53,946 nucleotides of DNA, from positions 1 through 53,946 of the forward strand of contig NZ_JABEQM010000020.1 of NCBI RefSeq assembly GCF_014174155.1. Reading direction: 5' to 3'. Below are positions 20,499 to 41,345 of the stretch, one piece after another. Under the pieces are notes generated by a model. The model was given only the letters and a program-made list of their open reading frames with translations, was not told where the DNA came from and did not search any database. Numbering within the stretch: the first letter of the stretch is position 1; each line of letters begins with the position of its first letter. The translations under genes were made by a program, and so were the position numbers. The stretch is from Gluconacetobacter tumulisoli (GTDB lineage: Bacteria > Pseudomonadota > Alphaproteobacteria > Acetobacterales > Acetobacteraceae).

Positions 20499-21743
20499 TT
20501 ATTGCATCGTGGCGCGCTCCAGCAGGCAGTCGGGACCGATCTCTTCCAGCGAAGCGAGACCGAGCTGGGCCATGTCCAGATCGATCTCGCGGCGCAGCAG
20601 CGCCGCCGCATGGCGCAGGCCGGGTTCGCCGGCCAGGGCGGCGGCATACAGGAACGGACGGCCGATCAGCACGAAGTCCGCCCCCAGCGCGAGGGCTTTC
20701 AGGATATCGCCGCCGCGACGGAAGCCGCTGTCGACCAGAACCGCCATGTCGCCGCTTTCGTCGCGGATCGCGCCCAGAACGTCCATCGGCGACGCGGCGC
20801 CGTCCAGCTGGCGGCCGCCATGGTTCGAAACGACGATGCCGTCCACGCCATGCTGCCGTGCGAGGCGGGCGTCCGCTGGCGAGAGAATCCCCTTCAGGAC
20901 CAGCGTTCCCTGCCATGACCGCCGGATCTGCCGCACGTGATCCCAGGTGAAGGCACCATCCCCGCCGATGAAGCTGACCTGGCGCGAGAACAGGCCCGGC
21001 CCGCCGCGCGGCTGGATGTTGGAGATGACCGGCACCCCCTGGCGCGCCACGGTGCGGGCCGCGGTACCCAGCAGCCAGTGGGGGTGCGTGATTCCGTCGG
21101 CGATCAAGCGCGGGGTCAGGCGTATGGGCATCGTGTAGCCATTCCGCCGCTCGGCCTCGCGGTTCGATCCCGCGGGGACGTCGGCGGTCACCACCAGCAC
21201 CCTGACGCCGGCGGCGGCAACACGGGCCAGCATGCCTTCGATATGGGCCGGATCGGGCGGCAGGTAGGCGGCGAACCAGATATCGGGATTCACCGCCGTC
21301 ACGGCTTCCATCGGCGTGATGGAATTCGCGCTGAGCACGAACGGCAGGTTGGCTGCCCGTGCGGCCCGCGCCATCCGCAGATCGGCGTCGAAGGCCGCCA
21401 CCGCCGAGGCGCCCATGGGCGCGATCCCGAACGGCACGTCATAGCGATGGCCGAACAGGGTGCGGGCCGGCGTGCGCGACGCCACGTCGCGCAGGATCCG
21501 CGTGACGAAATGCCAGCGGCCGAAGACGTCGCGATTGCTGCGGATCGCCCCGCCATCCGCCGCGCCGCCGCTGGCATAGCCGTAGATGGCGTGGGGCAGG
21601 CGACGGCGGGCGGCGGCCTCGAAATCGTCAAGGTTGAGGTAACGCCCCCACAGGCGCGGGATCGGCGCGGACGCCGGCACGGGCGATACCGCGGGCGAGG
21701 AAGTGTCCGTAGGACGTGTCGGCACGATGGACAGGGCGGTCAT
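20499..21743 (-). CDS. FMN-dependent 2-hydroxyacid dehydrogenase (LldD/mandelate dehydrogenase-like)
   Basis: An alpha-hydroxyacid oxidase of about 414 residues that oxidises a 2-hydroxy acid to the 2-oxo acid through FMN. It has the N-terminal NLDDFEAAARRRLP, IAPMGASAV, the active-site His in VVSNHGGRQLDGA, and the phosphate-binding DSGFRRGGDILKALALGA with GRPFLYA. It is the last gene of the tetrose operon, 30 bases after an MFS gene. This suggests that it acts on a sugar acid such as a tetronate rather than lactate; that is inference. A TTG at 21758 would add five residues. Electrons may go to the quinone pool. Confidence 0.87.
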   Translation of the reverse strand: MTALSIVPTRPTDTSSPAVSPVPASAPIPRLWGRYLNLDDFEAAARRRLPHAIYGYASGGAADGGAIRSNRDVFGRWHFVTRILRDVASRTPARTLFGHRYDVPFGIAPMGASAVAAFDADLRMARAARAANLPFVLSANSITPMEAVTAVNPDIWFAAYLPPDPAHIEGMLARVAAAGVRVLVVTADVPAGSNREAERRNGYTMPIRLTPRLIADGITHPHWLLGTAARTVARQGVPVISNIQPRGGPGLFSRQVSFIGGDGAFTWDHVRQIRRSWQGTLVLKGILSPADARLARQHGVDGIVVSNHGGRQLDGAASPMDVLGAIRDESGDMAVLVDSGFRRGGDILKALALGADFVLIGRPFLYAAALAGEPGLRHAAALLRREIDLDMAQLGLASLEEIGPDCLLERATMQ

Positions 21744-21756
21744 TCTGTTTATCCAC

Positions 21757-21805
21757 AATCGGGGTCCAGGGCCTCAGGCCCGGGTGGGTTCGGGCAAGGC
21801 CCGAT
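21757..21805. repeat. Dispersed GC-rich intergenic repeat, copy A
   Basis: One of six related copies. It contains CGGGGTCCAGGGCCTCAGG followed by GGGTTCGGGCAAGGCCCGA. Each half can fold into a hairpin. It overlaps the last codons and stop of the MFS gene ending at 21774. Confidence 0.75.
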
Positions 21806-23102
21806 CCGTCATCGGGTTCCGCGGGTTCCTCGGGGCCAGCGGCGGCAGCGGGGCGATCGGTCCCACGACGAACAGATAGGTCAGGGCTCCCAGCACGCAG
21901 AACCCGCCGGTGACGCACAGCGGCGCGATGAACGAGCCGCCGGTGAGCTTCAGGATGACGCCGGTCATCGTCGCGGTCAGGATGCCCGACAGGTTCGCCG
22001 CCCCGTTCTGAATGCCGCTGAGCGAGGCGACATGCGCCGCGCTGGGCGCCACGTCGGCGGGCAGCGACCAGATATTGGCGCCGGCGAAGGCGATGCCTGC
22101 GTAGGCCGTGGTGAAGAATGTCAGGCACAGCGCGTCGCTGCGCGTGAAGGCCGACAGCGTGATGATCGACGACAGCAGCATGCCGCCGACCAGGCAGGTC
22201 TTGCGCGCGGCGGTCAGGCTCCAGCCCGCGCGGTACAGCCGGTCCGACGTCCAGCCCCCGATCCAGGCGGATGGAACCGCCGCCAGGCCCGGCAGCATGC
22301 CCAGAACGCCCAGTTGATGCAGCGAGAAATTGCGTGCCTGCACCAGGTAGGTCGGAAACCAGGTGGTATAGAAATAGAAGACGAAATTCAGGCAGAAGAA
22401 GCCGATCATCATCCCCCAGACCGTCCTGTAGCGGAACAGGGCGCGGAACGGCACCGTCCCCTTTGCCCCGGCCCCCGACGTCTGCACCGCGGGCTGTGCC
22501 GCCCGCAATGCGGCCAGTTCCGCCGGGGTGACGCCGGAATGGCGATCCGGATCGCGATAGAGCAGCAGCCATGCCGCCACCCACACGACCCCCACCAGCC
22601 CCGTGACGACGAAGGCGAGGCGCCAGCCGGTAAAGCTGATCAGCAGTGCGATCAGCGGCATCGACAGCGCCGAACCGGCGCGCGACCCGCTGTCGAAGAT
22701 GCCCGAGGCCAGGCCGCGCTCACGGGTGGGGAACCATTGGGCCGCGACCTTGGTGTTGCAGGGATAGCTGCCGGCCTCGCCGATGCCCAGCGCGAAGCGG
22801 CAGCCGAACAGCAGCGCCGCGCTGTTGACGATCGACGTGATGGCCGTGAAGAACGACCACCATAATACGGCGACGGTGTAGGTCAGGCGCGGGCCCAGCC
22901 GGTCGACCACCAGGCCCGCCGGCACCTGCATGAACGCATAGGTCCAGAAAAATCCGCTGAGCACCACGCCCAGCACGGCGGGGCCCAGATGCAGATCGCG
23001 CGCGATGAAGGGGGCCGCGACCGACACGGTCGCCCGGTCGATATAATTGATCGTCGTAGCTGCGAAGCACAGGATGACCATGATCCATCGTAACCGTGGC
23101 AT
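21774..23102 (-). CDS. MFS transporter, anion:cation symporter (ACS) family
   Basis: A 442-residue, 12-helix major facilitator. ACS hallmarks are INYIDRATVSVA in helix 1, LVVDRLGPR between helices 2 and 3, and LGIGEAGSYPCNTKVAAQWFPTRERG in the helix 4-5 region. Family members move organic anions such as hexuronates, glucarate, tartrate or phthalate with protons. Within a tetrulose and tetronate operon the likely cargo is a sugar acid. The C-terminal residues (ALPEPTRA) are encoded by repeat copy A, so the tail may have been extended or replaced by repeat insertion. Confidence 0.9.
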   Translation of the reverse strand: MPRLRWIMVILCFAATTINYIDRATVSVAAPFIARDLHLGPAVLGVVLSGFFWTYAFMQVPAGLVVDRLGPRLTYTVAVLWWSFFTAITSIVNSAALLFGCRFALGIGEAGSYPCNTKVAAQWFPTRERGLASGIFDSGSRAGSALSMPLIALLISFTGWRLAFVVTGLVGVVWVAAWLLLYRDPDRHSGVTPAELAALRAAQPAVQTSGAGAKGTVPFRALFRYRTVWGMMIGFFCLNFVFYFYTTWFPTYLVQARNFSLHQLGVLGMLPGLAAVPSAWIGGWTSDRLYRAGWSLTAARKTCLVGGMLLSSIITLSAFTRSDALCLTFFTTAYAGIAFAGANIWSLPADVAPSAAHVASLSGIQNGAANLSGILTATMTGVILKLTGGSFIAPLCVTGGFCVLGALTYLFVVGPIAPLPPLAPRNPRNPMTDRALPEPTRA

Positions 23103-23147
23103 GGTACGATACTCCGAACGGAGAGGGGGAGGGGCGCCGGCTGGTGC

Positions 23148-23963
23148 CTATGGCTCCGGACGTGGCGCGGCCAGGGTACGGGAAGCAGTGCGCGCCAGGG
23201 TGGCGTACCCCTCGGCGGTCCAGGCGGCGCGGCCCACGAACAGGCCGTCGATGTCGGCCAGCGCGGCATAGGGCGCCGCGTTTTCCAGGTTCACGCTGCC
23301 GCCGTACAGCAGCGGCGGGGACACGCCCGGGGCGCCGGCGGCGCGGTCGAGTTCCTGCCGGATGCCGGCAGCCGCCTGCGCCACCAGTTCGGGCGGAGCG
23401 GGGCGTCCGGCCTCGCCGATCGCCCAGACGGGTTCGTAGGCGAACATCACGCGGCCGGCCTGCGCCGCCGTCAGTCCATGCAGTGCCAGGCGCACCTGGC
23501 GGGCCAGGATCAGGTCGGCGACGTTTCCGTCCCGTTCGGCCTGCGTCTCGCCGATGCAGACCAGCGGGGTCAGCCCATGGCGCAACGCGGCATGGATTTT
23601 CCAATTGACGGTTTCGTCGGTCTCGCCGAAATGCCGGCGTCGCTCGGAATGGCCCAGCTCGACCATCGTCGCGCCGCACTGGCGCAGCATCGGCGCCGAG
23701 ATCTCGCCGGTCCAGGATCCGGACTCGTCCCAATGCATGTTCTGCCCGCCGACCTGCACCGCGCTGCCGTGCAGCAGGCGCGCGACATCAGCCAGGACGG
23801 TGAAGGGCGGCATGACGAAGGGACGGATGCCATGCCAGTCGTCCACCGCCGCGATGCGTTCGGCATAGCGCCGGGCGTCGTCCGGCAGGCCGTTCATCTT
23901 CCAGCTGGTGCCCACCCAGAAGGGCCGGCCGGGCTTGGGGTTGGATGTCGCGGATGCGGACAT
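23148..23963 (-). CDS. lerI: L-erythrulose 1-phosphate isomerase-like TIM (LerI/EryH type)
   Basis: A 271-residue triosephosphate-isomerase homologue. Catalytic residues are all present: Lys in GTSWKMN, His in ELGHSERR, Glu in AYEPVWAIG, and the phosphate loop YGGSVN. The N-terminal GTSWKMN in place of the usual GNWKMN, and QNMHWDESGSWTGEIS, match the tetrulose branch known as EryH in Brucella and LerI in mycobacteria. That branch converts L-erythrulose 1-phosphate to D-erythrulose 4-phosphate. The gene is 5 bases after an HCDH-family dehydrogenase and in the same operon as an RpiB homologue, which supports this reading over glycolytic TpiA. Confidence 0.82.
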   Translation of the reverse strand: MSASATSNPKPGRPFWVGTSWKMNGLPDDARRYAERIAAVDDWHGIRPFVMPPFTVLADVARLLHGSAVQVGGQNMHWDESGSWTGEISAPMLRQCGATMVELGHSERRRHFGETDETVNWKIHAALRHGLTPLVCIGETQAERDGNVADLILARQVRLALHGLTAAQAGRVMFAYEPVWAIGEAGRPAPPELVAQAAAGIRQELDRAAGAPGVSPPLLYGGSVNLENAAPYAALADIDGLFVGRAAWTAEGYATLARTASRTLAAPRPEP

Positions 23964-23968
23964 GGCGC

Positions 23969-24940
23969 CTAGTCCTTCCGCTGGAGGGGGGAGGGGCCGA
24001 GTTCCTGCAGAAGCTGGCCCATCCGCGCATAGGCCTTGTTGCGATAGGCGATCAGCGCGTCAGTCTGCGTCTTGTCGAAGCTGCCGGAATAGCCGGCGCC
24101 CGATTTGGTGCCGAACTTGCCTTCGGCCACCAGGGCGGTCAGCGAGGCCGGGGTGGCCAGGCGGGAGCCGAACGCGTCCTCGAACGTGCGGAAGCAATTG
24201 GCGTAGACGTCCAGCCCCGCCATGTCGGCAATGGCGAACGGGCCGAAGAACGGCAGCCGGAACCCGAAGGTGGTGCTGACCAGCGTATCCACGTCCTCGG
24301 GCGTGGCGACGCCTTCCTCGACGATCAGGGTCGCCTCCTTCAGCAGGACATACTGCAACCGGTTAAGCACGAAGCCCGGCGTGTCGGCGACCTGCGCGCA
24401 GCGCCGCCCGGCGCGGGCCAGCAGGTCGCGGATCGCCGGCACGATCGCGGGATCGGTATCCCTGCCGCAGACCAGCTCGACGCCGGGGATGAATGGTGCC
24501 GGGTTGCTGAAATGCACCGTCAGGAAGCGGCGGGGATGGCGCACGGCGTCGGCCAGCGTGTGGACCGGCAAGGTCGAGGTGTTGGTCGCGATGATCGCAT
24601 CGGGTCGCGCCGCGTCCGAGATCTGGCCCAGCACGTCGCGCTTCAGCGCCGGGATCTCGGGCACTGCCTCCTCGATGAAATCGGCGTCGGCCACCGCCTC
24701 GGCGATCGAATCGGCAGCGCGGAGATTGTCGGCGATCAAGGCCGCCGCGCCAGCCGGAAACAGACCCTGGCGCTCGAAGGCCAGGGCCTCGTCGTGCAGG
24801 CGGCGCAGCGCCGCTGTCGTGGCGTCGGGCGAGGCATCCGCCAGCGTGACCCTGACCCCCGCCAGGGCCAGCGACTGGGCGATACCGCCCCCCATGTATC
24901 CCGCGCCGATGACGGCGACAGTTCTGATCTGGATCGTCAT
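23969..24940 (-). CDS. 3-hydroxyacyl-CoA dehydrogenase-family NAD(P) dehydrogenase
   Basis: A 323-residue two-domain protein. The Rossmann motif is VAVIGAGYMGGGIAQSLALAG, the catalytic His is in TVHFSNPAPFIPGVELV, and the dimer domain starts at DTPGFVLNRLQYVLLKEA. ATG at 24940 is the first sensible start. The fold is used for fatty-acid 3-hydroxyacyl-CoA and for sugar acids (L-gulonate) or carnitine. No thiolase, hydratase or ligase is nearby, and the neighbours are tetrose enzymes. A hydroxy-acid or tetronate substrate is therefore more likely than an acyl-CoA. Confidence 0.82.
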   Translation of the reverse strand: MTIQIRTVAVIGAGYMGGGIAQSLALAGVRVTLADASPDATTAALRRLHDEALAFERQGLFPAGAAALIADNLRAADSIAEAVADADFIEEAVPEIPALKRDVLGQISDAARPDAIIATNTSTLPVHTLADAVRHPRRFLTVHFSNPAPFIPGVELVCGRDTDPAIVPAIRDLLARAGRRCAQVADTPGFVLNRLQYVLLKEATLIVEEGVATPEDVDTLVSTTFGFRLPFFGPFAIADMAGLDVYANCFRTFEDAFGSRLATPASLTALVAEGKFGTKSGAGYSGSFDKTQTDALIAYRNKAYARMGQLLQELGPSPLQRKD

Positions 24941-25077: not shown

Positions 25078-25569
25078 TTACAGCGCGTGGGCGGGGGCCG
25101 GTTCGTAGCTGCAGATGGCGGCCACCTTCGCCGCCGACGCGGATTGCCGGTCGAAGCGATAGCCCAGCCATTCCCGGACCAGCATCCGCGCCAGTTCCAG
25201 CCCGATCACCCGTTCGCCCATGCACAGGATCTGCGCGTCGTTGCTCAGGACGCCGCGCTGGACCGAATAGGAATCATGGGCGGTGACGGCGCGGATGCCC
25301 GGGACCTTGTTGGCGCTGATCGCCACCCCCAGCCCGGTCCCGCAGATCAGCAGGCCCCGGTCCGCCCGGCCGTCGGCGATCATGCGGGCGGCCCGGACGG
25401 CGACGTGGGGATAATCGGTATGTTCGTCGTCGCCGACGCCGATATCGATGACTTCGGCGACCCGTGGATCCTGCCGCAGGTCGCGGGCCAGGGCGGCGCG
25501 ATAGTGCAGGCCGGCATCGTCACTGCCGATGACGATCCGCAATGTGCGCGGGGTGTCAGACATTTTCAT
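25078..25569 (-). CDS. derI: RpiB/LacAB-type isomerase, D-erythrulose 4-phosphate isomerase-like (DerI/EryI)
   Basis: A 163-residue RpiB-fold isomerase. The N-terminal [16 protein letters not shown] has SDDAG where ordinary ribose 5-phosphate isomerase B has SDHAG. The catalytic Cys is in [19 protein letters not shown]. The SDDAG form and longer C terminus fit the tetrose branch that converts D-erythrulose 4-phosphate to D-erythrose 4-phosphate. Its start overlaps the kinase stop by 14 bases (or 8 if the second Met at 25563 is used), so the two are coupled. With lerI it would feed the pentose phosphate pathway. Confidence 0.84.
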
Positions 25570-27268
25570 GCTCCATCATCTTCAGGATCGTGCGGGCGCA
25601 CAGCGCCAGCGACACCGCGCCGGCGTCGGGATGGCCCTTGCTGCGCGCCGCCAGCGGGCGGGCGCGTCCGATGCGCGGCAGCAGGTCGGCCGTGCGGTCG
25701 GCGGCAGTGGTGGCCACCTGGACGGCCGCGTGCCAGGCCCGGGCCAGCGTGGCGCCGTTCGCGCTTTCGCGCTCCAGCGTCTCGACGAACGGCAGCAGCG
25801 CGTCGACCAGCGTCTTGTCACCCGGGCGGGCGCCCCCCAGGCGCATGACGGCATCCAGGGCGGTGCGCGCGGCGTGGGCTACATCGACGGCCGAGGGATC
25901 GCCCTGGTTACCGATCGCCCGGCCGGCGCTCTGCAGCCCCAGGCCCCACAACGCCCCCGACGTGCCGCCCGCCCGGTGGGCCCAGGCATCGGCCGCCGCC
26001 GTCAGCACGTCGCCGGCCCCGGCCCCGCCCGTCGCGGCGTCCCGGGCCGCGCGGGCGCCGGCCGCCGACCCGCAGGCCATTCCCCGGCCGTGATCGCCGT
26101 CGCCGGCGCGTGCGTCGATCCGGCCGAGCTCCGCCTCGGCCCCGTCCAGCGTCGCCGCCAGCAGGCTCATCGCCTCGGCCACCGCGCGTCCGGCGGAGCG
26201 CGACGCGGGGGATGACGGCGCCCAGGCGGCGGCCTGGTCGGCGGCTTCCTCGACCCGAGGGGCCGGCGTGGTCGGAATGGTCGGACCGCGCGTCAGGGCG
26301 GCGCTCTCGCATGGCGCGGTCCAGAGCGGTTCCAGCGTGTCATCCAGCCAGGTCAGCGACAGCGAACATCCTTCCATGTCCAGGCTGGTGATGAATTCGC
26401 CCACCTCGGGCCGGATAGATTCCAGGCCGGCATTGCGCAGGCCGGCCGCGACGGACGTCCACAGCACGAACAATTCTTCCTGCTTGGTGCCGCCCAGCCC
26501 GTTCAGGACCGCCGCGACATGCGTGCCCGCGCCGGCCGGCATGTCGTCCAGCAGCCGGCCGACCAGCAGGGTCGCCAGGTCGCCGGCCCGCAGGATCGCG
26601 ACCTCGTCGATGCCGGGCTCGCCATGGATGCCCAGGCCCAGCGCCATATGACCCGCCGGAACCGAGAACAGGGGGGCCTCGGCGCCCGGCAGGGTGCAGC
26701 CGCCGAACGCGACACCGAACGAGCGCGTACGGTCGTTGGCGTGGCGGGCGATCCGCGCGACCTCGTCCAGCGGCTGGCCGGCTTCGGCCGCGGCCGCCGC
26801 CAGCTTCAGCACCAGCAGGTCGCCCGCGATGCCTCGACGCCTGGCCGGTTCGCGCGCACTGGCGATGTCGTCGGTGATCGCCACGATGCGCGTGTCGATC
26901 CCTTCGCGGCGCAGGCGCTCGGCGGCGATGTTGAAGTTCAGCACGTCGCCGGCATAATTGCCGAACATCAGCAGCACGCCGCCGCCGCGATCCGCCCGTT
27001 TGCAGACATCGTAGACGGCCTTGGCCGAGGGCGACGCGAAGACGTCGCCGGCCACGGCCGCATCGGCCAGGCCAGGCCCGACATAGCCGGCGAAGGCCGG
27101 GTAATGGCCGCTGCCGCCACCGATGACGACGGCGACCTTGCCGTCCGGCGTGGCGGTGGCCCGCATCACCCCGCTGCGGATGCGCTGCACAAGGTGGGCG
27201 TGAACGTCGCAGAACCCGTCGAGCGCCGTCGCCGCGAAGCCGTCCGCCCCGTTATGGATATGCGTCAT
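25556..27268 (-). CDS. Dihydroxyacetone-kinase-family protein, probable erythrulose kinase
   Basis: A 570-residue single-chain ATP-dependent kinase. The DhaK domain (1 to about 330) has [25 protein letters not shown] and the substrate-binding His in GIHGEPG (H215). The DhaL domain (about 355-565) has [13 protein letters not shown] for Mg-ATP and [10 protein letters not shown]. No PTS partner (DhaM) is present, which fits the ATP-dependent form. The coupled RpiB-like gene and the nearby EryC-like and LerI-like genes point to a tetrulose rather than dihydroxyacetone. L- or D-erythrulose is the expected substrate. Confidence 0.87.
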
Positions 27269-27304: not shown

Positions 27305-28243
27305 TCAGCGCGGCAGGATGCGGCGCAGGTATTCGCGGTTGGTGGCGCTGACGCTCAGCCCGTCGCCGCCGTAATGTTCGACCAGGAAGGCGCTGCGAAA
27401 CCCGTGCTCCAGCGCCTTGCGGATCGCGGCCCGATAGCTGATGACGCCGAATTCCAGCGGCGCCGGCGCGGTGACGATCAGCCCCGTGGTCTCGTCCTCG
27501 GTGCGGAAATAATTCTTCACGTGCCAGTAGCGGGCGAAGGGCGCGACCTTCTCCATCATGGCCTGCCAATGTTCGACGGGGCGGTGCAGGCGCACCAGAT
27601 TTCCCAGATCGGCATTCAGGCCCACGTTCGGCAGGTCGATGTCGGTGACGAAGCGTACCGCGCTGTCGGCGGTGCCCAGATACGTGTCCTCGTACATCTC
27701 CAGCGACAGTTCGATACCGGCATCGGCGGCGTGGCGGCCCAGTTCGCGCAGGCGGCGGACGGCCAGGTCCCATGTCGCCCGGTCATCGGGGTCGCGGTAG
27801 CCATCGATCGTCCAGAACCACAGCGCGCGCTTCTGTTCGGGCGTCAGGGCCTGGAACAGGCCGAAGGACACGGCCCCGGCGCCGATTTCCGCCGCCACGT
27901 CGATCAGGCGGTGGGAATATTCCAGATATTCCTCGCCATGCTGCGCGTCGATCACGCTGCGCCGCGCGGTCGAGATGGCAGGGATCGTCAGGCCGGCGTC
28001 GCGTACCACGCCCATGAATTCATTCAGTCGGCTGCGGCCAAGATCGGCGATCCGCAGCCAGGAATCGGTGGGATCAAGGTCGGTGAAGCCCGCGTCCGCG
28101 ACATCGGCCAGGGTCGCGGCCCAGTTTTCGGCCGGTAGGTCCTGCACGCACCGCCCGTCGGGCAGGATGTTCGGATACTGGATCATCGCGGCCGCGATCG
28201 GCCAGTTATGGCGATTCCAGGATGGGGAGGCGATTCCGGTCAT
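27305..28243 (-). CDS. Sugar phosphate isomerase/epimerase, EryC-like candidate
   Basis: A 312-residue AP_endonuc_2 TIM barrel. Expected metal ligands are Glu in ELSLEMYED, Asp in VGLNADLGN, His in WHVKNYF and Glu in FLVEHYGGD. ATG at 28243 (MTGIASPSW) is chosen; the open frame continues far upstream but overlaps the MFS gene. Brucella EryC, the tetrulose-phosphate 3-epimerase, is a protein of this fold and similar size. This gene sits with kinase, LerI-like and DerI-like genes as eryC does. Direct evidence for the epimerase reaction is lacking. Confidence 0.78.
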   Translation of the reverse strand: MTGIASPSWNRHNWPIAAAMIQYPNILPDGRCVQDLPAENWAATLADVADAGFTDLDPTDSWLRIADLGRSRLNEFMGVVRDAGLTIPAISTARRSVIDAQHGEEYLEYSHRLIDVAAEIGAGAVSFGLFQALTPEQKRALWFWTIDGYRDPDDRATWDLAVRRLRELGRHAADAGIELSLEMYEDTYLGTADSAVRFVTDIDLPNVGLNADLGNLVRLHRPVEHWQAMMEKVAPFARYWHVKNYFRTEDETTGLIVTAPAPLEFGVISYRAAIRKALEHGFRSAFLVEHYGGDGLSVSATNREYLRRILPR

Positions 28244-29799: not shown

Positions 29800-30801
29800 T
29801 CAGGAGGCGCGGCGCAGGCCCGGTTGTTCGCCGCCCAGTTCGTCATCGATATGGGCCTGGATGATGTCCTCGAACGCTGCCTCGGCGACGAAGCCCAGGG
29901 CCCGTGCGCGCGCCGGGTCGAAGGCCCGCGCCCAGCCCGTGACGATGCGCTGGATCAGCGGGTCGGGTTCGCGGCGGATCAACGCCACCGCCCGTGGGCC
30001 GGCGATCTTGCGCAGGGCCTCGATCTGTTCGCCGACGGTGACCGACAGGCCGGGCATCGTCAGGTTCGGGCGACCGCCCAGCGCGGCGGGGTCCAGCGTC
30101 GCCGCATGCAGGAAGAAGGACACCGCCGAACGCGGGCTGGTCATCCAGTGGCGCACGTCCTCGCCGACCGGCAGGATCGCCTCCTGCCCCACCAGCGGTT
30201 CGCGAATGATGTTCGAGAAGAATCCGGACGCCGCCAGGTTGGGCTTGCCCGGCCGCACGCAGATCGTCGGCAGGCGCAGGCCGATGCCGTCCAGCAGGCC
30301 CCGGCGGGTATAGTCCGCCAGCAGCAGTTCGCACATCGCCTTCTGCGTGCCGTAGCTGGTCTGCGGGGTCAGCAGGTAATCGTCACCGATCACATCAGGC
30401 ATGTCGCCGCCGAACACCGCGTTGGTGGACGCGAAGATCACCTTTGGCCGGGCACCGTCCGCCCCGTTCAGCCGCAGCGCGTCGAACAGCGCGCGCGTGC
30501 CGTCCAGATTGATGCGGTAGCCCTTTTCCAGATTGGCCTCGGCATCGCCCGAGACGATGGCCGCCAGATGGAAGACCACGTCGGGCCGCAATGCCGCCAT
30601 GCGCGCGGCCTCGCCGGGCTGGCCCAGGTCGGCGATGAGGCAGTCGGTGCGGTCTTCCAGCCCCGGCGGGGCGGCGGGCAGGACGACGTCGGCCAGGGTC
30701 AGGCGGGTGATGCCATGCGACCCGACGACGGGCGTCCGGCCGAGGGCTTCGGCCAGCTTGCGCCCGATCATGCCGGCCGCGCCAAGAATCAGCACATGCA
30801 T
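29800..30801 (-). CDS. denD: D-erythronate dehydrogenase-like extended SDR (DenD)
   Basis: A 333-residue extended SDR. It has ILGAAGMIGRKLAE for NAD binding and the catalytic YGTQK. The stretch RLPTICVRPGKPNLAASGF, followed by REPLVGQEA, is characteristic of DenD, which oxidises D-erythronate to 2-oxo-D-erythronate. It leads the leftward operon whose later genes process tetrulose phosphates. The 2-oxo-tetronate isomerase, kinase and decarboxylase that would follow are at 34255-37052. Function is assigned by remembered family motifs. Confidence 0.84.
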   Translation of the reverse strand: MHVLILGAAGMIGRKLAEALGRTPVVGSHGITRLTLADVVLPAAPPGLEDRTDCLIADLGQPGEAARMAALRPDVVFHLAAIVSGDAEANLEKGYRINLDGTRALFDALRLNGADGARPKVIFASTNAVFGGDMPDVIGDDYLLTPQTSYGTQKAMCELLLADYTRRGLLDGIGLRLPTICVRPGKPNLAASGFFSNIIREPLVGQEAILPVGEDVRHWMTSPRSAVSFFLHAATLDPAALGGRPNLTMPGLSVTVGEQIEALRKIAGPRAVALIRREPDPLIQRIVTGWARAFDPARARALGFVAEAAFEDIIQAHIDDELGGEQPGLRRAS

Positions 30802-31959: not shown

Positions 31960-32038
31960 CTGTCTTCTGTGCCTCGCAGTCACTAACCCATATTGTGAAA
32001 TGTGACGACTTGGAATGGGGAATCGTCCTGGTCTGCCT

Positions 32039-34254: not shown

Positions 34255-35064
34255 CTACTGATCGCCGGTCGTTTCCGGGGCGCTTTGTCCCCGCCAGGGC
34301 TCGATCCAGCCCAGGCCCGCGCGCATCGTTCCACGGGGACGGTATTCGCATCCTACCCACCCGGCATAGCCAAGCGTGTCCAGCAGGCGGAACAGATACG
34401 GGTAGGCCAGTTCTCCGTCATCGGGTTCGTGGCGGTCGGGCACGCCGGCCGCCTGGATATGGCCGATCACCGGCATCAGCGCGCGCAGGCGGGTGGTGAC
34501 GTCGCCCTGCATGATCTGGGCGTGATAGAGGTCGAACTGGACCCGGACATTATCCGCGCCGACAGCGGCGCAGACCCCCGCGGCGTCTTCCTGCCGGGTC
34601 AGGAAATATCCGGGCATATCGCGGGTGTTGATCGCTTCCAGTACGATCGTCACGCCGGCGTCGCGCGCCTGGCGGGCGGCATAGGCGATGTTGTTCACAT
34701 AGACGTCGTGATACCGGTTGCGCGCATCCGGATCGGGGCAGAGGCCGGCCATCACATGCAGGCGCCGGTTGCCCAGGACGCCGGCATAGGCCAGCGCGGT
34801 CTCGATCGTACGGCGGAACTCGTCCTCGCGCCCCGGCAGGGCGGCCAGACCGCGTTCGCCGGCCGCCCAGTCCCCCGGCGGGGCATTGAACAGCGCCAGT
34901 GTCAGGTCGTTGTCGCGCAGGCGGGCCTGGATGTCGGAAGCAGGATGCGCGTAGGGAAAGAGGAACTCGACACCGCGAAACCCGTCCGCCGCCGCGGCGG
35001 CGAAACGGTCCAGGAAATCGCATTCGACGTAATTCATTGTCAGGTTGGCGGCGAAGGCAGGCAT
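34255..35064 (-). CDS. otnI: 2-oxo-tetronate isomerase-like (OtnI, hydroxypyruvate isomerase family)
   Basis: A 269-residue TIM barrel. It starts [21 protein letters not shown] (shown here from 35064) like Hyi and OtnI proteins, and has metal ligands in [15 protein letters not shown] (Glu), [11 protein letters not shown] (Asp, His), GHIQ and GCEYRPRG (Glu). OtnI converts 2-oxo-tetronate to 3-oxo-tetronate. It lies 36 bases after otnC in the ltnD-otnK-otnC-otnI order seen in known tetronate loci, which favours OtnI over glyoxylate-pathway Hyi. A GTG 27 bases upstream is an alternative start. Confidence 0.86.
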
Positions 35065-35100
35065 GGCAGGGGATATCCTTGCTGTCGGCACACGGAATGA

Positions 35101-35745
35101 TCAGGGCCAGGTCACGCCGAAGGTCCGGCACAGGTCCGCAACCTGTTCCGGCTCCAGCGGGGCGGGGCGCGGGGCGGTCATCAGCCACAGGCGCGCCGTT
35201 TCCTCCAGTTCTTCCAGCGCGTCCGCCGCCTGGGTGACGCTGGCCCCCCACATGACCGGCCCCAGGCGTTCCAGCATCACGCCGCGGACCTGCTTCGCGA
35301 TCGCCCCGACCTGCTCGGCCACCGCAGGCGCCCCGGGCCGGTCGTAGGCGATCAGCGGAATCCGCCCGACTTTCATCACCTGATAGGGCGTGATCGGCGG
35401 CAGGATCGCGTCGGGCGCGTGCACGCCCGCCAGCGTCAGCGCCACCAGATGGGTGGAGTGGGTGTGGATCACGCCGTGGCAGTCGGGACGATTTTCGTAG
35501 ATTCGCCTATGCAGCGCCAGCGTCTTGGACGGGCGGTCGCCGGAAATCCAGTCCCCATTGGACGAAATCCGCGCGATCGCGGCCGGATCGAGCCGCCCGA
35601 GGCAGGCATCGGTCGGCGTCATCAGCCAGCCGTCTTCGAGGCGTACGCTGATATTGCCGGAACTGCCGGCCGTATAGCCACGCCGGTACAGGTTCCACCC
35701 GATCAGGCAGATCTCCTCGCGCCGCATGCTTTCCACGCTCATCAT
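35101..35745 (-). CDS. OtnC-like class II aldolase (3-oxo-tetronate 4-phosphate decarboxylase homologue), divergent active site
   Basis: A 214-residue class II aldolase-fold protein with TAGSSGNISVR, MTPTDACLG and the zinc pair H94/H96 in VIHTHSTHL. Its start overlaps the otnK stop (ATGATGA). By place and length it is OtnC, which would release CO2 and give dihydroxyacetone phosphate. However, two residues expected from FucA and OtnC are absent. The catalytic Glu after PSK is Thr (T75), and the third zinc His of the NHGP motif is Leu (L161 in LERLGPV). It may use other ligands, or its chemistry may differ. Confidence 0.78.
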   Translation of the reverse strand: MMSVESMRREEICLIGWNLYRRGYTAGSSGNISVRLEDGWLMTPTDACLGRLDPAAIARISSNGDWISGDRPSKTLALHRRIYENRPDCHGVIHTHSTHLVALTLAGVHAPDAILPPITPYQVMKVGRIPLIAYDRPGAPAVAEQVGAIAKQVRGVMLERLGPVMWGASVTQAADALEELEETARLWLMTAPRPAPLEPEQVADLCRTFGVTWP

Positions 35746-37052
35746 TCCGCCCCCGTCGCGGCCGCTTTTTCCGATCCTGCCAGCGCCGCCACGGCCTCGG
35801 CAAAGAAATCCGGACCGCCGAAATTGCCCGATTTCAGGGCAAAGCCCATCCGGTCCGTCCCCAGGCTGACGGTGGCCGGTACGCCCGGCGCGATCGGCGC
35901 CCCGATCTGCAGCATGTCCACCCCCAGCGCCAGGACCACGGCGCCCGAGGTCTCGCCGCCGGCGACCACGAAATGCCGTACACCCTGTTCGCGCAGTCCC
36001 CGGGCCAGGTCGCCCATCGCCTCCTCGATCATCGCGCCGGCGGCCTGCACCCCCAGGCGGCGCTGCACCGCGGCGACGTCGTCGGCCGGGCCCGTGGCGT
36101 AGATCAGGGGCGTGCCGATGCTGCGTTGCGCGAAGGCCAGGGCGCGGGCCACGACCGGTTCGCCCGCCGCCAGCAGCATCGGATCGATCCGGAAGGCCGG
36201 CCGGCCGTCCTGGATCCAGCGCGCGACCTGCCGGTTCGTCATCTCGGACGCGCTGCCGGCCAGCACGGCGCAACGGCCCGCGATGCGGGGCAGCACCGTG
36301 GCGTCCTGCGCCGGCAGCAGGCCCTGCCGGCGGAAATTGGCGGGCAGGCCCATCGCCATGCCCGACCCGCCGGTCACCAGCGGGTGGTCGGCGCAGGCCT
36401 CGCCCAGCACCAGCAGTTCCTCGTCGTCCAGCGCGTCGGCGATGGCCATGCCGATGCCCTCGGCCCGTAATTGCGCGATGCGCGCCCGCACGGCATCGGC
36501 ACCCCGCGCCACCACCTGGTGCGCGATCAGCCCCACCGCCGCATCGGTCTGGGCCTGCAGCACCCGCACCAGGCTGGGGTCGCGCATTGGCGTCAGGGGA
36601 TGGTTGCGCATGCCGCTCTCGCTCAGCAGGACGTCCCCCACGAACAGATAACCCTTGTAGACCGTGCGCTGATTGGCGGGAAAGGCCGGGCAGGCGATGG
36701 CCAACGGCGTCTCCGTGGCCGCCATCAGGGCCTGGGTCACCGGGCCGATGTTCCCATCCGGTGTCGAATCGAACGTCGAGCAATATTTGAAGAAGATTTG
36801 CCCGCATCCCCGGGCGCGCAGCCAGGCATGGGCGGCCAGCGATTGTTCGACGGCCTCGCGCGCCGGAACGGTCCGGGTCTTGAGCGCCACGACGATCGCA
36901 TCGGCCGCGATATCGGCCAGCTTCGCATCGTCCTGTACCCCGATCGTCTGCACCGTGCGCATCCCGCCCGCCACCAGCGTGCTGGCCAGATCGGTGGCGC
37001 CGGTGAAATCGTCGGCGATGCAGCCCAGAAGGGGCCCCTGTGCCTGCGTCAT
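35742..37052 (-). CDS. otnK: 3-oxo-tetronate kinase (OtnK, DUF1537 family)
   Basis: A 436-residue DUF1537 kinase. The N-terminal acid-binding domain opens GCIADDFTGATDLASTL and has FKYCSTFDSTPDGNIG and PAFPANQRTVYKGYLF. The C-terminal ATP domain has AGSASEMTNRQV, VVAGGETSGAVVLALG and LKSGNFGGPDFF. The family includes kinases for threonate, erythronate and 3-oxo-tetronate; the otnC and otnI partners choose OtnK. ATG at 37052 overlaps the ltnD stop, and its own stop overlaps otnC, so the set is translationally coupled. The open frame continues upstream but lies within ltnD. Confidence 0.9.
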   Translation of the reverse strand: MTQAQGPLLGCIADDFTGATDLASTLVAGGMRTVQTIGVQDDAKLADIAADAIVVALKTRTVPAREAVEQSLAAHAWLRARGCGQIFFKYCSTFDSTPDGNIGPVTQALMAATETPLAIACPAFPANQRTVYKGYLFVGDVLLSESGMRNHPLTPMRDPSLVRVLQAQTDAAVGLIAHQVVARGADAVRARIAQLRAEGIGMAIADALDDEELLVLGEACADHPLVTGGSGMAMGLPANFRRQGLLPAQDATVLPRIAGRCAVLAGSASEMTNRQVARWIQDGRPAFRIDPMLLAAGEPVVARALAFAQRSIGTPLIYATGPADDVAAVQRRLGVQAAGAMIEEAMGDLARGLREQGVRHFVVAGGETSGAVVLALGVDMLQIGAPIAPGVPATVSLGTDRMGFALKSGNFGGPDFFAEAVAALAGSEKAAATGAE

Positions 37053-37978
37053 GACGCCGCTCCCCCCGTGCTGTCGTTCCCGGCCGGTCGGTTCATGCCC
37101 GGAAGCGTTATTCCCGGAAAGATCTTGATGACGGCGGAATCGTCCTCGCGCCCCAGCCCGGCGGCGGCGGCCTGAAGGAACATCTGATGCGCGGCCGAGG
37201 CCAGCGGCAGGGGAAAGCGCGCGGCCCGCGCGGTGTCCAGCACCAGGCCCAGATCCTTGACGAAGATGTCGACCGCCGACAGCGGCGTATAATCCCCCGC
37301 CAGCACATGGGCCATGCGGTTCTCGAACATCCAGGAATTGCCGGCACTGTTGGTGATGATGTCGTACACGGTGTTCGGGTCGGCCCCTTCGCGCAGGCCC
37401 AGCGCCATGGCCTCGGCCGCCGCGGCGATGTGTACCCCCGCCAGCAACTGGTTGATGATCTTGATCCGCGTGCCCAGCCCCACCCGGTCGCCGACGCGAT
37501 AGACGCGGCCGGCGATCGCCGGCAGCACGTCCCGCGCCCTGTCGTAGGCCTCCGGCGGTCCGGAGGTCATCAGCGTCATCTCGCCGGTCGCGGCCTTCGC
37601 CGCCCCGCCCGACATCGGTGCGTCCAGCAGCCAGATGTCCCCGGCCCGCAGGCGCGTTTCCAGCGCCTCGATCGCGGCGGGGGCGACGGTCGCGCAGGCG
37701 ATGACCAGGCCGCCCGGCCGCATGGCGGGGAATGCGCCGCCGGGGCCGAACAGCACGGCGTCGGTCTGCGCGGCGTTCACCACCAGGATGACGATGATGT
37801 CGCATGCCTCGGCCACATCGGCGGGGGTGGCGCTGGCCGTTCCCCCTTGGGCGGCGAAGGCCTCCAGCACCTCGGGCCGGATGTCGTAGGCATGCACGGC
37901 ATATCCCGCGCGCAGCAGCGAACGCGCGACGCCCAGCCCCATGGCGCCCAGGCCGATGACCCCGATGGAGGGTTTCAT
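37049..37978 (-). CDS. ltnD: L-threonate dehydrogenase-like (LtnD, 3-hydroxyisobutyrate dehydrogenase family)
   Basis: A 309-residue beta-hydroxyacid dehydrogenase with GVIGLGAMGLGVARSL for NAD, LDAPMSGGAAKAATGEMT for substrate binding and the catalytic Lys in RIKIINQLLAGVHIA. LtnD oxidises L-threonate at C2 to 2-oxo-tetronate, the OtnI substrate, and the coupled downstream otnK supports this. ATG at 37978 follows AAGGA; a GTG 24 bases upstream is possible. Tartronate semialdehyde reductase is a related alternative function. Confidence 0.87.
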   Translation of the reverse strand: MKPSIGVIGLGAMGLGVARSLLRAGYAVHAYDIRPEVLEAFAAQGGTASATPADVAEACDIIVILVVNAAQTDAVLFGPGGAFPAMRPGGLVIACATVAPAAIEALETRLRAGDIWLLDAPMSGGAAKAATGEMTLMTSGPPEAYDRARDVLPAIAGRVYRVGDRVGLGTRIKIINQLLAGVHIAAAAEAMALGLREGADPNTVYDIITNSAGNSWMFENRMAHVLAGDYTPLSAVDIFVKDLGLVLDTARAARFPLPLASAAHQMFLQAAAAGLGREDDSAVIKIFPGITLPGMNRPAGNDSTGGAAS

Positions 37979-38027: not shown

Positions 38028-39386
38028 CTACATCGTGGCCTTGCTGCGATCCGTCATCAGGCTCAGCGCCACCGCCGCGACGATCCCGCCGAAGACCAGA
38101 TACCCCGCGACCGCGTAGCCGCTGCCCGACCAGGCCAGCAGGGCCGCCGCGACCAGCGGCGCGGGGCCGCCCGCGACCAGAGAGGACATCTGGTAGCCCA
38201 GGCCCGCACCCGAATATCGGATGTTGACTGGAAATTGCTCGGAAATCAGGGACGCCTGCGCCCCGTACTGCAGCGCATGCGGCAGCAGCGACAGCGCGAT
38301 GGCGATGAAGATCAGCGTGGTATTGCCGGAATTCAGGACCCAGAAATAGGGAAAGGCCATCAGCACCAGCACGGCGCAGCCGATGTAGTACATCCGGCGC
38401 CGGCCGACGCGATCGGCGGCGACGGCGCAGACCGGCAGCAGGATCATGTCGATTACCGCCGCCACCAGCGTCGCCGACAGCACGAAGGTGCGGGTGACAT
38501 GCGCGGTGGTGGTCGCATAATCGAAGATAAAGGCAGTGAAGATATAAAACGGCATCTGCTCGGACATGCGCAGGAACGCGATCATGATGATTTCGCGCCA
38601 GTACCCGCGCAGCACCGTGCCCACCGGGCTGTCCTCGATCCGTTTCTCCTGCAAGGCCTGGGCGAATGACGGTGTCTCACGGATCGACAGCCGCACCAGC
38701 AGGCCGATGATGACGAGGATCCCCGACAGCAGGAACGGAATGCGCCACCCGCCCACCAGGAAATCGGGGCCGGTCAGCATGCTGGCGCCCATCACCGCCG
38801 ATGTGGACAGGATCAACCCGATCGAAGTGCCGACCTGCGGCCAGGCCCCGGCGGCCCCGCGCCGGTTCTGCTCGCCCCATTCCAGCGACATCAGCGCAGC
38901 CCCGCCCCATTCCCCGCCGACGCCGAAGCCCTGGACGATCCGCAGCATTACCAGCAGCCCCGGCGCCCACAGGCCGATCCGGTCGTAGGACGGCAGGACA
39001 CCGATCAGGAAGGTCGCCAACCCACTGAGGGTCAGGGTGACGATCAGGGTCGTCTTGCGGCCCACCCGGTCGCCGAAATGCCCGAAGACCGCGGCGCCGA
39101 TCGGACGGATGACGAACGCGACGCCGAACGAGGCGAAGGACAGCATCAGCGATACCAGCCGGTTGTGGCTGGGAAAGAACAGATGCGGGAACACCAGGGC
39201 CGCCGTGGCGCCATAGATGTAATATTCATACCATTCGATGGTGGTGCCGATCAGGCTTCCGATCGATGCCCGGCGCCGTTGCTGCCGGGCATCGGGCGCC
39301 TGCGCCATGCGCTGGATATCCGCGCCGGAATCGGAAACGGGTGGGGCGCCAATGCCGGCGCCGGGTGACATCGTCAAATCGGTCAT
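38028..39386 (-). CDS. MFS transporter, metabolite:H+ symporter (MHS) family
   Basis: A 452-residue carrier with 12 helices. Diagnostic MHS segments are SLIGTTIEWYEYYIYGATAALVF, VIRPIGAAVFGHFGDRVGRK and LRIVQGFGVGGEWGGAALMSLEW. MHS members carry alpha-ketoglutarate, citrate, shikimate or sugar acids. The gene is 49 bases upstream of ltnD and probably imports the tetronate for the otn enzymes. The 48-residue N-terminal tail before the first helix is long and Pro/Ala-rich. Confidence 0.9.
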   Translation of the reverse strand: MTDLTMSPGAGIGAPPVSDSGADIQRMAQAPDARQQRRRASIGSLIGTTIEWYEYYIYGATAALVFPHLFFPSHNRLVSLMLSFASFGVAFVIRPIGAAVFGHFGDRVGRKTTLIVTLTLSGLATFLIGVLPSYDRIGLWAPGLLVMLRIVQGFGVGGEWGGAALMSLEWGEQNRRGAAGAWPQVGTSIGLILSTSAVMGASMLTGPDFLVGGWRIPFLLSGILVIIGLLVRLSIRETPSFAQALQEKRIEDSPVGTVLRGYWREIIMIAFLRMSEQMPFYIFTAFIFDYATTTAHVTRTFVLSATLVAAVIDMILLPVCAVAADRVGRRRMYYIGCAVLVLMAFPYFWVLNSGNTTLIFIAIALSLLPHALQYGAQASLISEQFPVNIRYSGAGLGYQMSSLVAGGPAPLVAAALLAWSGSGYAVAGYLVFGGIVAAVALSLMTDRSKATM

Positions 39387-39539: not shown

Positions 39540-40484
39540 TCACTCCTGATCCTGCACGATCTCCTTCTTCGCGCGCACCAGCCGGGCCAGGCACCGGTCC
39601 CGCCAGGCCTTGCGGGCATCCAGATCCGAGGCCGGCGTTCTGGCGCGGCGCGCGTCCTCGACGCGGGCAATCAATGCCTCGCCCCAGGGACGCGGATCGG
39701 CCTGTTCCCGCGCCAGATCGTAGTACATCGGACCCAGCTTGCGGCAATAATCGGCGATCCCGCCCTGGGCGTTCAGGTCGATGGTCTCGAACGGGCCCAT
39801 GAAGAACCAGCGCAGTCCCAGCCCGTCCGACATCGCCGCATCCACGTCATTGGGCGAGCAGATCCCGTCCTCGACCAGGCGAAAGGCCTCGGCCAGGACG
39901 GCGCTTTGCAGGCGGTTGACCACGAAGCCGGGGATTTCGCGGCTCAGCTGGATGGGGACCTGGCCCACCGCCTGCATCAGGGCATGGGTGCGCGCCACGA
40001 CCGATGGATCGGTCCAGGGGGCGGGAATGATTTCGACCAGAGGGATCAGGTGGGGCGGGTTGATCGGATGCGCGACGACGCAGCGCGCCCGGCCCGGGAT
40101 CTCCGCCGTGAAGGCGGATGCCGGCAGCCCCGAGGTGGAACTGGCGATCACCGCGTCGGGTCCCGCCGCCACGGCCAGGTCGCGATAGAGCTCCTGCTTC
40201 ACCGCCAGGCGTTCGGGCGCGCTTTCCTGGATATAGTCGGCATTCCTCACCGCCTCGGCCAGTGACGGGGCGGCGTGCAGGCGCGCCAGCACGTCCTCGA
40301 CACGCTCGGCGTGCAGCAGGTCCTGCCGGGCCAGCGTTTCCGCGGCATCGCGCGCCACGTCCAGTGCGGTCTGCACGGCGGCGGGGGAGGGATCGTACAA
40401 TGTGACGTCGAAGCCGGCCCGACTGAAGACCAGGGCCCATGAGCCCCCGACCAGGCCGCATCCGACAAGTGCGATGTTCTTCAT
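39540..40484 (-). CDS. L-gulonate 3-dehydrogenase / lambda-crystallin (CRYL1)-like dehydrogenase
   Basis: A 314-residue NAD-dependent 3-hydroxyacid dehydrogenase. It follows the CRYL1 pattern throughout: IALVGCGLVGGSWALVFSRAG, IQESAPERLAVKQ, SSTSGLPAS, VAHPINPPHLIPLVEIIP with the catalytic His, GFVVNRLQSAVLAEAFRLVE, DGLGLRWFFMGPFETIDLNA and RKAWRDRCLARL. Known relatives oxidise L-gulonate at C3. In this operon a tetronate would give 3-oxo-tetronate directly. It is the first gene leftward of the divergent gntR and probably belongs to the otn transcription unit, with repeat D after it. Confidence 0.84.
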   Translation of the reverse strand: MKNIALVGCGLVGGSWALVFSRAGFDVTLYDPSPAAVQTALDVARDAAETLARQDLLHAERVEDVLARLHAAPSLAEAVRNADYIQESAPERLAVKQELYRDLAVAAGPDAVIASSTSGLPASAFTAEIPGRARCVVAHPINPPHLIPLVEIIPAPWTDPSVVARTHALMQAVGQVPIQLSREIPGFVVNRLQSAVLAEAFRLVEDGICSPNDVDAAMSDGLGLRWFFMGPFETIDLNAQGGIADYCRKLGPMYYDLAREQADPRPWGEALIARVEDARRARTPASDLDARKAWRDRCLARLVRAKKEIVQDQE

Positions 40485-40550
40485 GTGGTGCTTCCCGAAT
40501 TCGATGACTCGATAGTGGCGCGACCATTCTTTTTTATTTTAGCAGATCCG

Positions 40551-40562
40551 ATCCGATCGGAT
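40551..40562. promoter_or_regulatory. ATCCGATCGGAT palindrome, probable GntR operator
   Basis: A perfect 12-bp palindrome in the 123-base gap between the divergent dehydrogenase and gntR genes, next to a run of T (40530-40540). Position between regulator and target supports autoregulation. Confidence 0.55.
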
Positions 40563-40607
40563 ATACGATGTGGGGACGTTGCTGATGACAGAGGGGCATG
40601 TCAAGAA

Positions 40608-41345
40608 ATGTTTGCGAGACCACCGCGACGTGATCCGTTGTCGTCCTTGGCCCCGCAGGGTGGACAGGATGCCGCGGCCCTGCCGGCCGGCCCTGTGGCG
40701 CGCCCGGTCCGCCTGGCCGGCGAGGTCTACGAGATCCTGCTGAAACGCCTGATGGCGCTGGAGATCGAACCGGGGGAACGCATCGGCGTCGATGCCCTGG
40801 TCCGTGAACTGGAAGTATCGCAGACACCGATCCGCGAGGCGCTGGGCCGGCTGGAAACCCAGGGCCTGGTCGTCAAGGTGCATCTGTCGGGATATCGGGC
40901 GGCCCCGCAACTGACGCGCAAGCAGTTCAGCGACCTGTCGGAACTGCGCCTGGTGATCGAGCCCGCCGCCGCCGCCAAGGCCGCCCTGCTGATGTCCGAC
41001 GACGAACGCGATGCGATCGCCGCGATCGCCGACAGCATGGGCCAGCGTTTCAGCACGGACACGCAGGTGGCCTATAACCGGTTCGCCGAGGAAGACACCC
41101 GTTTCCACGCCGCGATCGCGAAGGCCAGCCAGAACGAATTGTACTATGACATCCTGGTGCAGCAGGCGGTCCATGTGCGCCTGTTCCGCCTGCGGCTGTC
41201 CGCGCGGGTCACGACGGATGCATTGGTGGAACACGCATGCATCATGGAGGCTTTCCATGCCCGTGACCCGGATGCCGTGGCGGCGGCGATGCGGACGCAT
41301 TTGGAAAACGCCTATGCCCGTTTCGTGGGGATCTACGATTCGTGA
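40608..41345 (+). CDS. GntR-family regulator, FCD type
   Basis: A 245-residue regulator. A 30-residue variable N terminus is followed by the winged helix (YEILLKRLMALEIEPGERIGVD, SQTPIREALGRLETQGLV) and an FCD domain with the metal-binding Asp and His pattern (EEDTRFHAAIAKAS, LVEHACIMEAF). ATG at 40608 is used; the open frame upstream runs through the promoter region. It is divergent from the tetronate operon and is its obvious local regulator, probably a repressor released by a tetronate. Confidence 0.9.
   Translation: MFARPPRRDPLSSLAPQGGQDAAALPAGPVARPVRLAGEVYEILLKRLMALEIEPGERIGVDALVRELEVSQTPIREALGRLETQGLVVKVHLSGYRAAPQLTRKQFSDLSELRLVIEPAAAAKAALLMSDDERDAIAAIADSMGQRFSTDTQVAYNRFAEEDTRFHAAIAKASQNELYYDILVQQAVHVRLFRLRLSARVTTDALVEHACIMEAFHARDPDAVAAAMRTHLENAYARFVGIYDS

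Follow-up and report, generated by a model that had tools for sequence, protein, structure and literature searches.

A Gluconacetobacter tumulisoli locus pairing a tetronate module with a putative sugar-acid module centred on a PF01261 protein

Introduction

The steps from L-threonate to dihydroxyacetone phosphate (DHAP) are described in the part of PMC12540250 used here (citing Zhang et al. 2016), and the part of PMC10580937 used here places denD of Brucella inside an otn operon and reports that this operon works jointly with the erythritol pathway. Here we compare with such systems a block of 18 genes, g1 to g18, present as open frames at positions 20499-41345 of a 53,946-nt stretch of Gluconacetobacter tumulisoli DNA (the window, to which all coordinates refer). 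The genome (G000) comprises 3.96 Mb in 49 contigs, of which the window is C20. A sequence-only reading had described the block as a joint tetrulose-phosphate and tetronate locus, fed by a single four-carbon source that is split into ketose and acid branches; our analysis partly confirms its observations and partly supports its interpretation. Among open-licence papers, judged by title and the start of the abstract, none was found to deal with the locus.

The locus is real: judging from its genes, one half is an ordinary tetronate route and the other appears to be a sugar-acid route of known style with a new enzyme, g7, at its centre. For this second module (20499-30801, together with the LysR gene g10) we propose, giving equal weight to its being right or wrong, that a sugar acid, probably with five carbons, is turned into erythrulose by oxidation and decarboxylation and then, by a DAK-type kinase and isomerases of the TIM and RpiB families, into erythrose 4-phosphate, so that the block would consist of two sugar-acid modules side by side.

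Identity of g7

The product of g7, which the sequence-only reading had named EryC, matches in Pfam only the broad superfamily PF01261 and reaches the cut-off of no NCBIfam model, so that neither collection names its reaction. As EryC references we used the TIM-barrel proteins of plasmid loci that also hold EryB, EryH and EryI homologues, although their records carry no ery names. In pairwise BLASTP comparisons g7 gave E values of 0.26 (Rhizobium leguminosarum) and 0.039 (Marivivens) to these references, and an EryC homologue was detected in 0 of 80 g7 loci (tblastn, 1e-12), which rules out by sequence that g7 is EryC. The window's genome has no EryC homologue at E<=1e-10. Close homologues (72-80% identity to Shinella EryC) occur in 4 of 21 g7-bearing Acetobacteraceae genomes, always separate from g7, in addition to one weak match at 29%; in G025, EryC lies within an EryA-EryB-EryC-LerI cluster. 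Likewise, g7 was rejected as OiaC, because no similarity was detected between it and the Pantoea At-9b protein that occupies the OiaC position.

The closest named relatives are those of Gluconacetobacter azotocaptans (96%) and G. johannae (94%), records of the window's genome possibly having been excluded from this comparison. Among relatives of solved structure the top match is the Mycobacterium smegmatis protein of PDB 5tnv (51% identity over 301 alignment columns), a xylose isomerase-like TIM barrel protein whose title gives no function. Four residues, E182, D212, H241 and E289, are invariant in 21 aligned sequences, and we take them to be the usual metal site of the PF01261 superfamily. 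The motifs around them look by eye closer to Pantoea OiaC than to EryC, which is suggestive only. In a structure model of g7 (mean predicted local distance difference test score 82), the best matches of named function after 5tnv were UlaE and D-tagatose/D-psicose 3-epimerases.

Gene company of g7

Relatives of g7 were found in 378 stretches of public genome contigs (tblastn, E<=1e-3), the best 80 of which were taken with flanks of at most 10 kb, truncated in some cases by contig ends, and scored for gene content by tblastn at 1e-12. A DAK kinase accompanies g7 in 65 of these loci, a PdxA-type dehydrogenase in 60, the matching GntR regulator in 60 and a tripartite tricarboxylate transporter (TTT) in 56. 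DenD is present in 16 loci and HCDH1, the 3HCDH-family dehydrogenase encoded by g4, in 10, every one of which also has DenD; matches to EryA (2 loci) and EryB (1 locus) are all weak (29-30%). The supposed division of one four-carbon source between ketose and acid branches thus finds no support, because g7 loci contain acid dehydrogenases (PdxA, HCDH1, DenD and the flavin mononucleotide (FMN) enzyme) and acid-type carriers, and rarely anything eryA- or eryB-like. The PdxA protein of the Shinella g7 locus falls below every PdxA and PdxA2 cut-off.

The order in Ensifer LCM4579 is GntR-PdxA-TctC-(196-aa frame)-TctA-g7-DAK-LerI-DerI, and that on an Arthrobacter plasmid is GntR-g7-DAK-RpiB-HCDH1-MFS-LerI (MFS, major facilitator superfamily carrier), from which it appears that PdxA with TTT and HCDH1 with MFS substitute for each other around a g7-DAK-isomerase core. 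Homologues of LerI and DerI lie near PdxA-g7-DAK in three Rhizobiaceae loci (L141, L151 and L153), and a Streptomyces plasmid carries g7-DAK-RpiB, with an LtnD-like dehydrogenase (36%) farther along. The g7-DAK-RpiB order that these loci share suggests transfer between phyla. A further version of g7-DAK is seen in Rhizobium sp. Root1203 (L148:3940-7725), where g7 is accompanied by an aldo-keto reductase and by what look by eye like separate DhaK and DhaL subunits.

Two layouts recur in Acetobacteraceae. One is LysR-DenD-MFSb-g7-MFSa-FMN, with HCDH1 mostly divergent; the other is g7-DAK with HCDH1, joined by TIM or RpiB in three of four cases (G086, G056 and G009, not G217). The window corresponds to the first layout with DAK-RpiB-HCDH1-TIM inserted between g7 and MFSa. 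In G071, where RpiB was not looked for, DAK-TIM-HCDH1 is on contig C12 and LysR-DenD-MFSb-g7-FMN on C18, two sets that the window unites. Between g7 and DAK, both G009 and an Asaia genome encode a protein of 329-366 aa (L053:7490-8590, L060:18114-19103), with DenD near; at the thresholds used, neither Pfam nor NCBIfam assigned it to a family.

Across a family sample of 249 Acetobacteraceae genomes from 102 genera, g7 is present in 21 genomes (14 genera) and HCDH1 (E<=1e-95) in 19 (13 genera), all of the latter within the g7 carriers at both levels. At most 8-9 first-look candidates were scored per genome in these searches, so that a divergent copy could escape. The co-occurrence has a Fisher probability of ~1.5e-26 by genome and ~1.5e-15 by genus, values that ignore kinship and therefore overstate the surprise.

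Kinase and isomerases

Model matches and the TIM tree support the reading of DAK, TIM and RpiB as a set of the tetrulose-phosphate kind. The DAK-type kinase g6 scores 716 against a cut-off of 492 on the model for the dihydroxyacetone kinase family, is 62% identical to the Shinella kinase beside g7 and 52% to the Pantoea kinase, and sits in its tree within a group of eight rows (support 96/98), all Acetobacteraceae kinases and six of them from g7 operons. The gene g3, proposed earlier to be lerI/eryH, is indeed placed on the EryH/LerI side of the TIM tree, in a 19-row group split with 100/100 support from seven TIMs classed as housekeeping, including the genome's own; its product belongs by this test to the EryH/LerI group rather than to triose-phosphate isomerase. 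A second TIM of the genome, on contig C6, is 46% identical to g3.

The identification of g5 as derI/eryI held for the RpiB family and failed for the rhizobial DerI group, since g5 scores 151 against a cut-off of 240 on the rhizobial D-erythrulose-4-phosphate isomerase model and 201 against 168 on the actinobacterial RpiB model. In the tree, which carries a long-branch warning, g5 groups at 100/100 with the RpiBs of four other g7 operons, those of Arthrobacter, Streptomyces, G009 and G. johannae. Class-wide searches with the DerI and OiaK models gave matches in 2 and 1 of 190 genomes, respectively, none above the cut-off.

The tetronate half and DenD

The homologues of denD, ltnD, otnI, otnC and otnK recognized before all exceed curated NCBIfam cut-offs, so that the complete tetronate set is supported, and LtnD, OtnI, OtnK and OtnC stand together in the module at 34255-41345. 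In this module LtnD would oxidize L-threonate, OtnI would shift the keto group, OtnK would phosphorylate and OtnC would decarboxylate the product to DHAP. This half of the block is ordinary, because OtnK at E<=1e-80 is found in 159 of the 249 family genomes.

The position of DenD is less simple. In nine sampled genomes (G008, G009, G022, G025, G071, G085, G149, G192 and G228) a DenD belongs to the g7 cassette and is separated from g7 by no more than one gene; none of these genomes has OtnK at E<=1e-80, so that their DenD cannot feed the OtnK route; since DenD is conserved with the g7 module in relatives, that of the window may serve either route. Its earlier assignment to the tetronate route is weakened by these genomes and favoured by the place of denD in the Brucella otn operon (PMC10580937, in the part used here).

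The two halves seldom lie side by side in the genomes covered. OtnK is present in 9 of the 21 g7 genomes, and g7 and OtnK share one fetched stretch in three, namely the window's genome, G. johannae and G048 (~16 kb apart), some of the fetched stretches being short (G219, 20 kb; G227, 8 kb). G. azotocaptans (L093) has both genes, and among the 80 loci L172 has OtnC and OtnK near g7. Because the halves are separate in most genomes seen, their adjacency is weak evidence for a shared substrate.

A proposed route and its alternatives

In the route that we propose, the MFS carriers of the second module would import a sugar acid, which HCDH1, DenD and/or the FMN enzyme would oxidize to a keto acid; loss of CO2 would give a tetrulose, to be phosphorylated by the DAK kinase and converted as tetrulose phosphate by TIM and RpiB to erythrose 4-phosphate. 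The data show gene families, conserved associations and tree positions; the substrate, the order of steps and the chemistry of g7 we infer from sequence and context. A path from sugar acid through keto acid and ketose to erythrose 4-phosphate fits because interchangeable acid dehydrogenases and acid-type carriers surround the g7-DAK core and tetrulose-phosphate isomerases are attached to it in several lineages. The acid would have five carbons (a pentonate or a branched isomer), because the ketose left after decarboxylation would be the four-carbon erythrulose, and decarboxylation of 3-oxopentonate would yield erythrulose by simple chemistry. The g7 protein, common to all versions of the module, would most likely decarboxylate the 3-oxo acid, an assignment to which we give slightly less than an even chance; an epimerase acting at C3 of erythrulose or erythrulose 1-phosphate, for which the fold matches of the model provide structural support, follows closely as a tentative alternative, and a keto-acid isomerase seems quite improbable. 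OiaC, of the D-apionate route, is a precedent for a PF01261 decarboxylase, and L-gulonate 3-dehydrogenase shows that a member of the HCDH family can act on C3 of an aldonate. A comparable gene plan, DAK-TIM-(TIM-barrel protein)-ApnO homologue, is present in the D-apionate/OiaC-type cluster of Pantoea At-9b.

Several observations weigh against this proposal. The assigned folds nearest to the g7 model are those of C3 epimerases, not decarboxylases. Two of the 21 g7 genomes (G179 and G227) lack HCDH1, and eleven Acetobacteraceae g7 cassettes have no DAK, TIM or RpiB inside, each of these genomes having at least two DAK and at least two TIM matches. LerI and DerI are near g7-DAK in just 3 of 80 loci, to which G. 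johannae adds the window's own TIM and RpiB types, and g5 is, by model score and by its tree with the warning above, outside the rhizobial DerI group. That g3 passes the NCBIfam triose-phosphate isomerase model (334, cut-off 293) does not decide its role, because the EryH and LerI controls pass as well (436 and 424). Finally, the acid may possibly have four carbons and the ketose be dihydroxyacetone, as DenD passes a model for a four-carbon acid and PdxA relatives are known for such acids.

This last point leads to a rather unlikely alternative, a tetronate route with the kinase last, in which a four-carbon acid would be oxidized, g7 would isomerize or decarboxylate the product to free dihydroxyacetone, DAK would form DHAP and TIM would be a triose-phosphate isomerase. 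DenD exceeds the cut-off of the D-erythronate model, as do three orthologues from g7 cassettes, Shinella PdxA matches the D-threonate 4-phosphate dehydrogenase model, albeit far below its cut-off (204 vs 583), and g6 and g3 pass the dihydroxyacetone kinase and triose-phosphate isomerase models; however, g3 is separated in the tree from housekeeping TIMs and stands with EryH and LerI, and RpiB would be without a task although the window, Arthrobacter, Streptomyces and G009 all have one in their g7 operon. The sequence-only reading implied entry at erythrulose or tetronate; in its erythrulose form, the ketose would arise when erythritol or threitol is oxidized in the periplasm, and g7 would be a D-erythrulose 1-phosphate epimerase, an EryC by function and not by descent. 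Acetic acid bacteria do produce L-erythrulose from erythritol (PMC9171043, part used), EryC is a D-erythrulose 1-phosphate 3-epimerase with LerK, LerI and DerI downstream (PMC10733421, part used), and among folds of assigned function g7 comes closest to ketose C3 epimerases. We nevertheless regard this entry as unlikely, as g7 loci hold acid dehydrogenases and carboxylate transporters rather than eryA/eryB, four g7-bearing genomes have a close EryC homologue as a separate gene, and HCDH1 would be left without a task. The absence of eryA on which that reading relied agrees with the finding that rhizobial EryA, EryB and EryC have no tblastn match in the window at 1e-5, FGGY kinases not having been searched for genome-wide; a sugar acid entering the tetrulose branch fits better than erythritol or erythrulose.

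The block could also be a D-apionate pathway of the OiaC or OiaK type, which we consider very improbable. Clusters in which annotation or a model identifies OiaX, OiaK or ApnL also have DAK, LerI-type TIM and RpiB; OtnK and OiaK are distantly related; and an ApnO homologue is encoded elsewhere in 4 of the 21 g7 genomes and OiaX in 1 of the 80 g7 loci. Yet g7 is not OiaC, and OtnK exceeds its own cut-off while scoring 125 on the OiaK model, which requires 700. D-apionate is disfavoured as the substrate by the lack, at E<=1e-10, of an ApnO homologue in the window's genome, ApnO being the defining enzyme of that route.

Should the proposed route from pentonic acid to erythrose 4-phosphate be correct, it would link pentonic acids to the pentose phosphate pathway by way of a decarboxylation and would differ from the dehydratase routes of Weimberg and Dahms. 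It may be widespread, with linear pentonates oxidized at C3 by interchangeable HCDH1, PdxA-like and DenD-like enzymes and converted through the new g7 step to erythrulose and erythrose 4-phosphate, a generalization that we consider less likely than not. Acetic acid bacteria and rhizobia would then own a route from a sugar acid to erythrose 4-phosphate that current annotation has missed. The family of g7 has a solved structure without a function in its title (5tnv), and the operons narrow its substrates and steps to a testable set.

The block and its surroundings

The DAK-type kinase, the TIM, the RpiB-family isomerase, four MFS carriers, two 3HCDH-family dehydrogenases, the FMN dehydrogenase and the LysR and GntR/FCD regulators listed earlier were all confirmed (Table 1).

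Table 1. Genes of the block, with window coordinates; scores are given against curated cut-offs (NCBIfam unless a Pfam or PRK identifier is given)
Gene	Position	Strand	Assignment	Basis and remarks
g1	20499..21743	-	FMN-dependent alpha-hydroxyacid dehydrogenase	PF01070; within conserved g7 cassette
g2 MFSa	21774..23102	-	MFS carrier	Nearest model D-galactonate transporter, below cut-off; kept near g7 in other acetic acid bacteria
g3	23148..23963	-	TIM-family isomerase, EryH/LerI side; L-erythrulose-1-phosphate isomerase candidate	Model and tree
g4 HCDH1	23969..24940	-	3HCDH-family dehydrogenase; candidate C3 dehydrogenase of sugar acid	Pfam
g5	25078..25563	-	RpiB-family isomerase, actinobacterial type; D-erythrulose-4-phosphate isomerase candidate	Model and tree
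g6	25556..27268	-	DAK-type ketose kinase, DhaK-DhaL fused (Dak1+Dak2); erythrulose kinase candidate	Models and tree
g7	27305..28243	-	PF01261 TIM-barrel enzyme (formerly 'eryC')	Not EryC or OiaC by sequence
g8 MFSb	28285..29733	-	MFS carrier, HpaX / D-galactonate group	Below cut-offs; conserved in g7 cassette
g9 DenD	29800..30801	-	D-erythronate dehydrogenase family	NF043036 363 vs 325; in g7 cassette of relatives
g10	31027..31983	-	LysR regulator	Profile matches
g11 MFSc	32323..33756	+	MFS carrier	Profile match
g12 OtnI	34255..35091	-	2-oxo-tetronate isomerase	NF043033 393 vs 325
g13 OtnC	35101..35745	-		NF043034 273 vs 250
g14 OtnK	35742..37052	-	3-oxo-tetronate kinase	NF043035 608 vs 350
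g15 LtnD	37049..37978	-	L-threonate dehydrogenase	NF043037 459 vs 350
g16	38028..39386	-	MFS carrier, metabolite/H+ symporter type	Profile match
g17 HCDH2	39540..40484	-	Second 3HCDH-family dehydrogenase	PRK06129 441 vs 347
g18	40485..41345	+	GntR/FCD regulator	Profile matches

When the window was compared by BLASTN with 40 kb of a G. johannae contig (G123), matches were confined to 20523-41348, so that the borders of the block are those of a conserved unit. The G+C content is 65-72% in the block (3-kb windows) and 54-62% in two adjoining windows on each side. Six Gluconacetobacter genomes were sampled, and g7, OtnK and HCDH1 are all present in G000 and G123 and were not found at the thresholds used in G042, G174, G215 and G247; since only two of the six have these genes, the block is accessory.

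On the right flank, three other Gluconacetobacter have a 67-72% identical stretch, and G123 and G174 show short repeat matches only. At the right edge of the block lies a stem-loop-rich element of about 105 bases (41363-41467), a dispersed repeat with one copy within the window and 42 matches in G. johannae; G042 and G174 have more copies, whereas those of G215 and G247 are single and short. Farther right (46077-53734) are glycosyltransferase-like and methyltransferase-like genes, by eye a surface-polysaccharide island. To the left, 15444-20452 contains genes for an aldehyde dehydrogenase (by eye), a GMC oxidoreductase and an OprB porin, a stretch absent from the compared 40 kb of G. johannae, and 6175-14359 holds genes for a sugar ABC transporter (ATPase, permease and binding protein), an aldo-keto reductase, a sugar isomerase-like protein and a short-chain dehydrogenase/reductase, by eye a separate sugar locus.

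Comparison with known systems

The tetronate module has LtnD, OtnI, OtnK and OtnC in common with the LtnD/DenD-OtnI-OtnK-OtnC route as given in the part of PMC12540250 used here, from which the window differs in having DenD in the other module and in the addition of HCDH2 and an MHS-type carrier. The Brucella otn operon, according to the part of PMC10580937 used here, has the same five tetronate enzymes and an MFS carrier; unlike the window, it forms a single operon that includes denD and has a regulator of the DeoR type, and that part of the source describes no g7, HCDH1 or DAK module.

The cluster of Pantoea sp. At-9b resembles the second module in its DAK, TIM-family isomerase, RpiB nearby, TIM-barrel protein in the OiaC place and NAD-type dehydrogenase, and differs from it in that the TIM-barrel protein has no detectable similarity to g7 and ApnO stands where the window has HCDH1 (or other loci PdxA). 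With the erythritol and tetritol routes, EryABC-EryH-EryI and LerK-LerI-DerI, as described in the part of PMC10733421 used here, the window shares a DAK-type kinase, a TIM of the EryH/LerI side and RpiB; the window's genome lacks an EryC homologue at the threshold given above, and acid dehydrogenases and acid-type carriers replace the polyol entry enzymes.

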